The notes beneath the pieces were generated by a model, which had not been told where the DNA came from, ran no database searches, and was given only the letters and a program-made list of their open reading frames with translations. The position numbers and the translations under genes were made by a program. A stretch of DNA of 22,334 bases, from positions 1-22,334 of IMG/VR virus record IMGVR_UViG_3300042291_000846. One strand, written 5' to 3'. This DNA is from a virus. Positions 504 through 19,463 of the stretch are shown piece by piece (position 1 is the stretch's first letter; every line of letters starts with the position of its first letter).

Positions 504-514
504 ACGTATTAGTA
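504..514 (+). promoter_or_regulatory. Conserved promoter-like motif, copy 1 (ACGTATTAGTA)
   Basis: This copy differs from the other plus-strand copies only in its first base (A for G). It is followed by GATATAGGACA, whose TATAGGA part resembles the melting and start region of single-subunit phage RNA polymerase promoters. It lies between genes and points towards the 85-aa gene at 645 and the small-protein and terminase cassette. The promoter role is inferred from recurrence and placement. Confidence 0.6.
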
Positions 515-520
515 GATATA

Positions 521-620
521 GGACACGCCGGGAGGCGCTCCTTGCAGGTGGCTTAAAACGCCACTTCGCTTTGGCTGCCTAAGTACACGGCGCTGACAGC
601 CCGGAAAGACGGGCACCTTT
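521..620 (+). ncRNA. Structured leader downstream of promoter-like motif 1
   Basis: The 130 bases between the motif and the 85-aa gene contain several possible hairpins and no good ORF. One is CGCC-GGGA-GGCG at about 526-537. A second has a 7-bp stem 546-552/560-566 with loop TTAAAAC. A third is GCCCG/CGGGC at 599-603/610-614 with loop GAAAGA. A Shine-Dalgarno sequence AGGAG follows at 634-638. It could be a 5' UTR regulator, a stabilising leader or an independent small RNA. Folding was judged by eye. Confidence 0.4.
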
Positions 621-644
621 ACACACAACACACAGGAGATTTAC

Positions 645-902
645 ATGAACCCATTTGAACTACGCTTTTCCGTATTTAACACAGCCAAAGACTTCTTAGA
701 GCAACAGTACAAGGCTAACCTAGCCGCGTTTGAGGCACTGGACAAGGCAACTAAAGAGGCGGCCGAACTGGCGCCTAAGTTCCCGACAATGGAAGAAGTC
801 ATTGAAAAAGCAGTAGAAATTAACAAGTTTGTTAGCGACGCCAACGAGCGTGAGCTGACTAAGATCGTCAAACGTGCCAACGGCATTGGCATCGTATTTT
901 AA
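645..902 (+). CDS. Conserved-type phage protein, 85 aa, function unknown
   Basis: The 85-residue protein is preceded by the strong ribosome binding site AGGAG (634-638), which fixes this ATG. It opens MNPFELRFSVFNTAKDFLEQ, a start I recall from small hypothetical proteins of aquatic tailed phages. The rest is helical and charged, with a Pro-containing hinge near residues 63-68 of the middle region and a short hydrophobic end (GIGIVF). No enzymatic motif is visible. It is the first gene after promoter-like motif 1 and stands alone between two structured non-coding stretches, so it may be controlled separately from the downstream cassette. Confidence 0.75.
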   Translation: MNPFELRFSVFNTAKDFLEQQYKANLAAFEALDKATKEAAELAPKFPTMEEVIEKAVEINKFVSDANERELTKIVKRANGIGIVF

Positions 903-18400: not shown

Positions 18401-19050
18401 GTCAGTGCTCTAGCAACAGAAGGATTTAATCCCGAGGGTAGTAAATCGGCGTACGATAAAGCAGAATTTACTCCGCTTCCTAATCCAGCGGTTAGTCCCC
18501 CGTAAAACGCGCCCTTTAGCGCACCTTTTATTGGGTCCCCGCCTTGAATAGCCGCCGAAGCACCACCTATACCACCGCCGTACAGTGCGCCCGTTCCTGC
18601 TGCAGCCAATGCGGCTTGAAGAGGGGTAATAACACCGGCGCCAACGCCGCCAAAAGTTAATCCGGTGCCCATAGCACCACCAAGTCCAGCAACACCGGAA
18701 GCAGTTGCACCAGAACCAGCTGTTAGGCCAATACCGCCAGTGGAAGCTCCGGTTAACCCGAATCCTCCTGCTCCTGCTCCTGCTCCTGCTCCTGCTCCTG
18801 CTCCTGCTCCTGCTCCTGCTGCGACCCCTTCTCCAACTACAGCAGCTTCTCCTAAAAATGGCGCTAGGTAAGGGGCGGCAACTATTAAAGCAATAGCGCC
18901 AACGGTTATCCAACCGCCAGGAATTACATCCCCAACCGCTTTGTCTAAAGTCGCGCCGGCTCTACCAATTGCAGGACCTGGGTCAATTTTAGCAAGAACG
19001 TTGCTAACGCCACGGAAGGTTTTTTCAACGCCAAGGGGATCGTTACCCAT
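15442..19050 (-). CDS. Giant repeat-rich internal virion-type protein, 1202 aa
   Basis: The 1202-residue protein is built of low-complexity modules. Residues 46-66 form a hydrophobic segment, and 77-95 an Ala-Gly run. Three G-G-D type repeats (170, 226 and 271, the clearest reading GGDPIKGALKGA and GGDPLQGAITGA) lie in glycine-zipper-like sequence that could insert into membranes. A coiled-coil region spans about 345-545, a Pro-Thr-Val-Glu repeat 671-797 and Gly/Thr/Ser repeats about 840-930. A 48-residue tandem duplication (945-992 and 1000-1047) and a C-terminus with GDGTSDSVPAMLANGEFVIP, typical of large aquatic phage virion proteins, follow. It is probably an ejected internal or tail protein. 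GGAGGG precedes the ATG, which overlaps the previous stop by one base. Confidence 0.7.
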   Translation of the reverse strand: MGNDPLGVEKTFRGVSNVLAKIDPGPAIGRAGATLDKAVGDVIPGGWITVGAIALIVAAPYLAPFLGEAAVVGEGVAAGAGAGAGAGAGAGAGAGGFGLTGASTGGIGLTAGSGATASGVAGLGGAMGTGLTFGGVGAGVITPLQAALAAAGTGALYGGGIGGASAAIQGGDPIKGALKGAFYGGLTAGLGSGVNSALSYADLLPSGLNPSVARALTSAGTTALRGGDLSAVLQNSALSTGLNTLAGQVNQYVNPVVTNAGTGAIGSAIKGGDPLQGAITGATGSLINQGINAGKDLYGRLTAPSNEAINPATGQPWSETGSGLTGSGAGISLNANMDATGFDLNSRYLTEASGTISGKLAELMPTIEEQRAALLGQADDVKANYDAVNLAQNNIKNAIDNEYNPKYQNVIGIQDKAQDLYDRITSVQSVYDTNKDAYESSSGSDTAAFTAANDAAAQLNDLIPQYNTTLQDFTTANAELTDIFNSNIQPLIETFEIAKTTLNGTVSDFATAETKFDKIVDTASSYLTGLNDISEGRLPTDYKAAALAMSAPTNQGFNNEELAAYQKAIEEGAQAAAAAEGTGTQTASNNGIGYVTVNPVPDEDTTTAPVAPSYPEGTTENPDGSITVQNPDGSVDNYDAAGNLIESTTPVDQEQNDINQVILDQIINQATPTPVAPTPVEPTPVAPAPVEPTPVPPTPVEPTPVPPTPVEPTPVPPTPVEPTPVPPTPVEPTPVPPTPVEPTPVPPTPVEPTPVPPTPVAPAPVEPTPALPTPVEPTPVLPTPVEPTPVEPAPVEPNVPFTPPVPAPIGSVSNPDGSITTYYDNGTSNVTVVPVAPVTPGNDGTLPATPGGDGNQPGGNLPGGDGNLPGGNLPAPVEPAPVEPAPVEPTTPPGGGTSTGGGTSTGGGTPTGGGTSTGSGGAPTGTGGIRIPTTGGLSSLGRPAIKDLTPQLTKSSAFKFANTPTYSYNLTPMPTQTPFDYTSQIFNAATGGSTSSARTIADLKPQLTERRAFEFSQNPNYEAVLSNIQAPTQFDYTQQILNAAQGGLIQGYAMGDQVGKVEGVEVLSPQIVRGRRVPPFFQGPQMAQSYRPQQYAQGGDVQQHNPQFFSEGGLGTLDNTYVEGDGDGTSDSVPAMLANGEFVIPADVVSKLGNGSNDSGADVLSEFLSTIRQHAQNHDPKKLPPESKGALAYLLDAKRKVG
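16662..17040 (-). repeat. 30-bp tandem repeats coding PTPVEPTPVP decapeptides
   Basis: About a dozen units of 30 bp, read on the minus strand as the decapeptide P-T-P-V-E-P-T-P-V-P and variants (with Ala or Leu), cover residues 671-797 of the 1202-aa protein. Central units (about 16780-16990) are almost identical, while units at both ends are degenerate, as expected from slippage or unequal crossing-over. The product is probably a stiff polyproline-II rod. Confidence 0.9.
18765..18818 (-). repeat. Hexanucleotide repeat (CTCCTG)x9 coding an Ala-Gly run
   Basis: Nine perfect copies of CTCCTG on the plus strand encode alternating Ala and Gly (residues 78-95) in the 1202-aa protein. The unit length keeps the reading frame, so gain or loss of units would change only linker length. 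Confidence 0.92.
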
Positions 19051-19442
19051 TACTTAGAACCCTCCACGGTAGCCATCCATTGGTATCCAGGTTTATTTGA
19101 TTTTTGAACATCAACACCCAGTCTATCCAATACGTCAAGGGTCTTTTTTAATTTAGCGTCCTGGGCCATGTTACCGCTCCCATACACACGATCAATATCA
19201 GAGTCTTTAATTTTGTCTACAAAATATTTTACCGCTTCTATAACCCTAGCCGGGCGGTCAACAGTAAAAATGTGTAGCTCAGCCATGCCTTTTGCAATAG
19301 CTATAAGTAATAAAACTGTGTCATTTTTTTGTAAAAGAACCGCTGCTTTTGAGTCAACCAACTTATCAATTTTACGAAGCAAAACATCGGCATCTCCGCC
19401 GATAGATTGTGTTTCTTGTGTGATAATTTCGGATGGTGTCAT
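19050..19442 (-). CDS. 130-aa virion-operon protein, possible acetyltransferase-like fold
   Basis: The 130-residue protein has a helical N-terminus, a hydrophobic strand VLLLIAIAKGMAELHIFTVD (about 43-62), a helix AVKYFVDKIKDSDIDRVYG and an ending GVDVQKSNKPGYQWMATVEG. The E-L-H-I-F-T-x-D and R-V-Y-G motifs recall small proteins annotated as putative acetyltransferases in T7-like aquatic phages, where they sit next to internal virion proteins. I make this link from memory and see no acetyl-CoA binding motif. The ATG is only ten bases from promoter-like motif 5 and no ribosome binding site fits between, so translation might be leaderless. It overlaps the 1202-aa gene by one base. Confidence 0.65.
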   Translation of the reverse strand: MTPSEIITQETQSIGGDADVLLRKIDKLVDSKAAVLLQKNDTVLLLIAIAKGMAELHIFTVDRPARVIEAVKYFVDKIKDSDIDRVYGSGNMAQDAKLKKTLDVLDRLGVDVQKSNKPGYQWMATVEGSK

Positions 19443-19452
19443 GTTCTATTTA

Positions 19453-19463
19453 CACTAATACGC
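19453..19463 (-). promoter_or_regulatory. Conserved promoter-like motif, copy 5 (GCGTATTAGTG, minus strand)
   Basis: It matches the plus-strand motif except for the last base. It lies in the 45-base gap between the 86-aa and 130-aa genes and is followed by TAAATAGAAC and the ATG at 19442. It would drive the internal virion protein genes 8697-19442. It is the only copy on the structural arm within this window. Confidence 0.62.

Follow-up and report, generated by a model that had tools for sequence, protein, structure and literature searches.

Five copies of a short directional motif in a phage DNA stretch of 22,334 bp (the window, meaning the whole stretch analysed) very probably act as promoters of the extended -10 type, used by the host core RNA polymerase together with a phage-encoded sigma70-family factor of ~189 amino acids. 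The original prediction of a phage-specific promoter family is strongly supported: the motif is conserved at orthologous places and strictly oriented, each genome uses a single version of it, and a TA is conserved at the putative transcription start. From the comparison of related genomes, we infer that this sigma factor reads this motif.

Gene arms and candidate promoters of the window

The window, taken from an IMG/VR record that is probably a genome fragment, belongs to a tailed phage and has two converging gene arms. The plus strand arm (positions 1-8696) encodes a TerS-like protein, a DUF2800/PD-(D/E)XK exonuclease, an Enc34-type ssDNA-binding protein, a class II ribonucleotide reductase (RNR) and a family A DNA polymerase (PolA), and the minus strand arm (8697-22305) the virion and ejection proteins. 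A search for a close DNA match among named phages gave none; the nearest named phages, found via the terminase of a relative, were Manatee Spring phage (55% identity) and the Caulobacter phages GB2A, RLK, KcrB and RW (41%). MW202545 and Caulobacter phage GB2A, both distant terminase relatives, had neither the sigma gene nor the motif in the first 50 kb of each. One similar contig, with RNR and PolA 83% and 69% identical, was binned with an uncultured betaproteobacterium, which gives a hint of the host.

Other repeats were also observed in these genomes. The 1202-aa gene at 15442-19050 encodes a protein with a long run of PTPVEPTPVPP repeats, which leaves the opposite strand (16625-17047) with a long, G-rich repetitive open frame that is probably not a gene. 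The word GTAGAGCCTA / TAGGCTCTAC is strongly over-represented in the window on both strands (11-12 copies against ~0.3 expected). In the relatives, TGGTTACAG is very frequent in G011 (99 copies), as is TGTTTAAAC in G029, G031 and G005 (39, 41 and 17 copies, respectively).

The five copies of GCGTATTAGTA lie where they had been placed, at 504-514, 2264-2274, 4130-4140 and 6739-6749 on the plus strand and at 19453-19463 on the minus strand. The copies at 2264, 4130 and 6739 are exact, and those at 504 (ACGTATTAGTA) and 19453 (GCGTATTAGTG) have one mismatch each; all five are intergenic, each facing the gene that comes next on its strand. In 200 second-order Markov simulations of the window, the mean numbers of exact and one-mismatch copies were 0.01 and 0.395, with maxima of one and three, against three and five observed. 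With a position matrix derived from other phages alone, exactly these five copies were the top five sites of the window, with scores between 34.3 and 20.5 bits, compared with 3.5 bits for the sixth site and 18.8 bits for the best site in 30 simulated windows.

The first site, P1 (484-520, plus strand, 27.4 bits), combines a GGGCG box at 484-488 with the extended -10 core at 504-514 and a putative start at A520, and would drive the 85-aa gene at 645-902 and the following genes up to the TerS-like gene. P5 (19447-19483, minus strand, 34.3 bits) has the related box GGGCA at 19479-19483, one change from GGGCG, its core at 19453-19463 and a putative start at A19447. Both boxes stand at the same fixed -35 distance from the core; the earlier statement that no -35/-10 pair is evident fails for these two copies. 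The putative start of P5 precedes by only five bases the ATG (19442) of a 130-aa gene (19050-19442), which is followed by the virion and ejection genes, and an mRNA begun there would have a five-base leader. The relatives L014, L057 and L081 carry GCGTATTAGTG at a similar place on the same strand as P5.

The other three sites precede genes of replication. P2 (2264-2280, 33.0 bits, putative start A2280) would drive the DUF2800 exonuclease gene at 2306-3439, P3 (4130-4146, 30.4 bits, putative start A4146) the gene of the ssDNA-binding protein at 4208-4726 and probably also the RNR gene at 4817-6691, and P4 (6739-6755, 20.5 bits, putative start A6755) the PolA gene at 6786-8696, all on the plus strand. 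P2 and P4 directly adjoin the T-runs of two intrinsic-terminator-like hairpins that are read directly from the plus strand, GGACTC-TTCG-GGGTCC (2242-2263) and GGGGCCC-TTCG-GGGCCCC (6715-6738). P3 has neither such a hairpin nor a GGGCG box. Sites orthologous to P1, P2, P3 and P4 are present in the relatives.

Several further elements accompany the promoters. Just after P1, a direct reading of the plus strand gives a leader hairpin (CGCC-GGGA-GGCG, 526-537), the stem arms of which covary in the relatives (CGTC/GACG, CGCC/GGCG, CGCT/AGCG and TGTC/GACA). The P3 leader (4147-4207) contains an apparent hairpin CTGG...CCAG, seen by eye only. The PolA leader (6755-6768) folds as ACAG-ATACGT-CTGT just before the PolA ribosome-binding site. 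Its loop ATACGT is invariant in the relatives, and in 53 relatives with this loop every stem keeps at least three of the four pairs, with compensating stems GCCG/CGGC, GCAG/CTGC, GCCA/TGGC, GCTG/CAGC and CTAG/CTAG. This hairpin looks like a conserved RNA element and is perhaps a translational control site. Finally, TCACAT(C/T)GTGAAA occurs before P3 (about 4098-4114) and is nearly palindromic in the relatives (TTTCACATTGTGAAA), and its half-site TTTCACATGGTG stands before the PolA terminator (about 6697-6705); the element is possibly an operator or a hairpin.

Conservation and anatomy of the motif in related phages

The set of relatives comprised 80 loci gathered by PolA similarity. The exact 11-mer was found 44 times in the forward orientation and not once in reverse, and the motif was present at the equivalent places before orthologous genes. 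Many loci without the exact word have a variant in its place (TTGCATTAGTA, TTGCATTATTA, TTGTATTATTA or TTGCATTAATA). Among 18 sigma-bearing records that were read, 17 use a single version each, and the 18th (G003) has TGTATAAT in place of the motif. For example, G035 contains 14 copies of GCGTATTAGTR and none of TTGCATTAGTR, G017 contains 11 copies of TTGCATTAGTR and none of GCGTATTAGTR, and G009 has 14 copies of TTGTATTATTR besides a single copy of another version. In an unbiased 9-mer enrichment analysis, the motif was the top-ranked word only in G035, G030, G024, G018, G016 and G017; in the remaining genomes, the window included, other repeated words outranked it. A same-strand ORF starts within 350 nt of 133 of the 141 sites analyzed. 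The number of sites inside mechanically called ORFs is eight (of 141), and some of these ORFs resemble over-calls, while a few of the sites may be chance matches. A literature search found no description of promoters of this phage group.

The anatomy of the promoters was read from the same 141 sites, with index 1 as the first base of the motif. The sites begin with GCG or TTG (index 1-3), followed by [TC]ATTA[GTA] (4-9), T and then A or G (10-11), and TA at 16-17. In G003, which has the most distant sigma, TGTATAAT is found at the corresponding sites relative to the genes, and the small-protein gene described below has its ATG at an unchanged offset. Since TATAAT takes the place of the motif there, index 4-9 would correspond to the -10 hexamer and the whole core to an extended -10 element. 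Transcription probably starts at the conserved TA.

Upstream of the core, GGGCG occurs in 55 of the 141 sites, always at index -19 to -15 within the 40 upstream bases, and GGGC at index -19 in 61 sites against an expected frequency of 0.0026 per position. This location corresponds to the -35 position and a 17-bp spacer; the GGGC(G) box is present in ~40% of the sites, and the majority have none. At the downstream end, an ATG lies exactly at index 17 in 31 of the 141 sites, and 27 of these open a frame of 50 codons or more. These sites belong mainly to three gene families, including that of a small ~101-aa protein, and the conserved protein sequences begin at this ATG. If transcription starts at index 17, these mRNAs begin with AUG, and some of the promoters would thus yield leaderless mRNAs.

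A phage sigma factor and the readers of the motif

A search for a sigma gene in the related phages identified a sigma70-family protein of ~189 amino acids with regions 1.2, 2 and 3. The 189-aa protein of G034 matched the Pfam families Sigma70_r1_2, r2 and r3 above the cut-off, and gave no match to r4. The profile of this family aligned with SigA (1.9e-34) and ended just after region 3.1, indicating that it lacks the sigma finger and region 4. The gene is present in 19 of 40 records, including all nine of at least 58 kb. The window fragment does not extend to the genome part that holds the sigma gene, and the sigma factor of the window phage itself is therefore deduced from its relatives.

The sigma proteins vary together with the motif. 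Those of genomes with the GCGT-type motif are 78-100% identical to the G034 protein, and the others 42-54%. In an alignment with E. coli sigma70, all sigmas of GCGT-type genomes have K455 and E440, and all others have N455. An enlarged IMG/VR set of 78 motif-holding sigma loci gave the same picture, with K455 accompanying GCGT in 32 of 32 loci and N455 accompanying TTGC or TTGT in 46 of 46, which represents an association and not a proof, given the near-duplicate contigs and a possible single evolutionary switch. The corresponding position of sigma70, H455, is an established contact of the extended -10 element, the part in which the GCG and TTG versions differ. The -12 base is not tracked cleanly by residues 437 and 440, and for this reason only residue 455 is stressed here.

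In none of 17 records does a motif precede the sigma gene on the same strand within 44 kb; the motifs lie downstream of it. This arrangement fits an early sigma factor made from host promoters. In the proposed programme, the host sigma70 would transcribe the early region containing the sigma gene, and the phage sigma would then switch on the replication genes (exonuclease, ssDNA-binding protein, RNR and PolA) and the virion genes. The preferred sequence of this sigma would differ between related phages in the GCG or TTG extension before the -10 hexamer.

The same sites could be read by host RNA polymerase with a primary or alternative host sigma factor, leaving the phage sigma to other promoters. 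Their geometry is that of ordinary sigma70 promoters, and at the equivalent positions some relatives carry TGTATAAT or TACAAT sites close to the consensus. However, the core [TC]ATTAG hardly varies and differs greatly from TATAAT, the motif version is strictly genome-specific and tracks residue 455 of the phage sigma, and no motif closely precedes the sigma gene itself. This makes recognition by a host sigma improbable.

Promoters of a single-subunit phage RNA polymerase, as originally proposed, are very improbable. T7 promoters are likewise short, well conserved and multi-copy, several of them stand just after terminators as some of the sites here do, and the 17 bases before the putative start, TATA-ended in several copies, are like the T7 promoter span. 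In contrast, a T7-type RNA polymerase gene was sought with the PF00940 profile and was detected in none of 47 related records, with a positive T7 control (E 9.9e-110). The relatives have instead a sigma factor that varies with the motif, and both the GGGCG box at -35 distance and the TATAAT in the place of the motif in G003 are features of sigma-type promoters. A profile of the RNA polymerase beta subunit (PF00562) likewise gave no match in 11 large records and detected all 14 control genomes. Equally improbable is a site near the promoters for a phage DNA-binding protein (an activator, a repressor or a replication or packaging factor), for which the very high conservation of the 11-base word would speak, since the motif is non-palindromic, is always aimed at the next gene, has fixed spacing to the downstream TA and the upstream GGGCG, and is replaced by TATAAT in G003.

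A candidate second sigma subunit and comparison with known systems

For host core polymerase with the phage sigma, a second phage protein can be suggested as the reader of the -35-position box. The search for it covered 17 sigma-bearing genomes, and 16 of them contain a gene of ~101 codons; the protein retrieved from G024 proved to be the product of another gene and was excluded from the alignment. The C-terminal ~57 residues of the encoded protein are predicted with high confidence to form a helix-turn-helix-like bundle. The best PDB fold matches of the model were mostly sigma region 4 structures (SigR4 with an rmsd of 2.0 and SigW4 with an rmsd of 1.6), but with E values of 0.85 or worse, and the family matched Pfam Sigma70_r4_2 with an E value of 0.022, below the cut-off. 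An hhalign comparison of the family with one E. coli RpoD region 4 sequence was non-significant and in the wrong register, and the sigma-4 identity is accordingly kept tentative.

The residues of the last helix of the ~101-aa protein are nearly invariant, as is GGGCG, while the sigma factor and the -10 element vary between genomes, which makes a split sigma plausible. On the strength of the predicted fold, the ~101-aa protein might tentatively be assigned the role of supplying the missing region 4 and reading GGGCG. The complete scheme, with a clade-varying reader of the extended -10 element, a conserved sigma-4-like reader of GGGCG and a class of ATG-start leaderless mRNAs that includes the mRNA of the ~101-aa protein itself, is a serious possibility with a chance of somewhat less than even. 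The two candidate genes are kilobases apart in the phage genome, and a literature search found no description of a split phage sigma.

Phages phiEco32 and 7-11 encode a sigma factor that guides the host RNA polymerase to phage promoters that are short, well conserved and low in copy number (PMC4331800). They resemble the phages analyzed here in having a phage sigma, two opposite gene clusters and early genes that are transcribed from host promoters, as is probably the case here, but their phage promoters are also found upstream of the sigma gene (PMC4331800), where none was detected here. The present system further differs in its sigma, with regions 1.2-3 and no region 4, in the sequence of the motif and in the GGGCG -35-position box at part of the sites.

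T4 late promoters (TATAAATA) are not known to have a -35 box. Most of the sites described here have none, whereas ~40% do. The T4 gp55 protein, a small sigma, recognizes a -10-like element within host RNA polymerase with the help of gp33 (PMC7892883), and like the sigma described here it has no region 4. However, gp33 reportedly has no structural relation to sigma region 4 (PMC7892883), in contrast to the sigma-4-like predicted fold of the candidate partner. Sigma domains located on two separate proteins are known from SigO-RsoA of Bacillus subtilis (PMC10141391). SigO-RsoA is a bacterial stress regulator, whereas the two candidate genes here are separate genes of a phage.

With the host core polymerase and a phage-encoded sigma as the probable readers of these promoters, the transcription programme would become readable for a large group of uncultivated phages. 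The related genomes would also provide a natural series of sigma-promoter pairs with changed -10 and extended -10 specificity, which may be used in tests of DNA choice by regions 2.4 and 3.0. If the split sigma is true, the -10-reading and -35-reading parts of a sigma factor would be visible evolving apart, and the leaderless promoter class would tie start-site choice to translation in phages.
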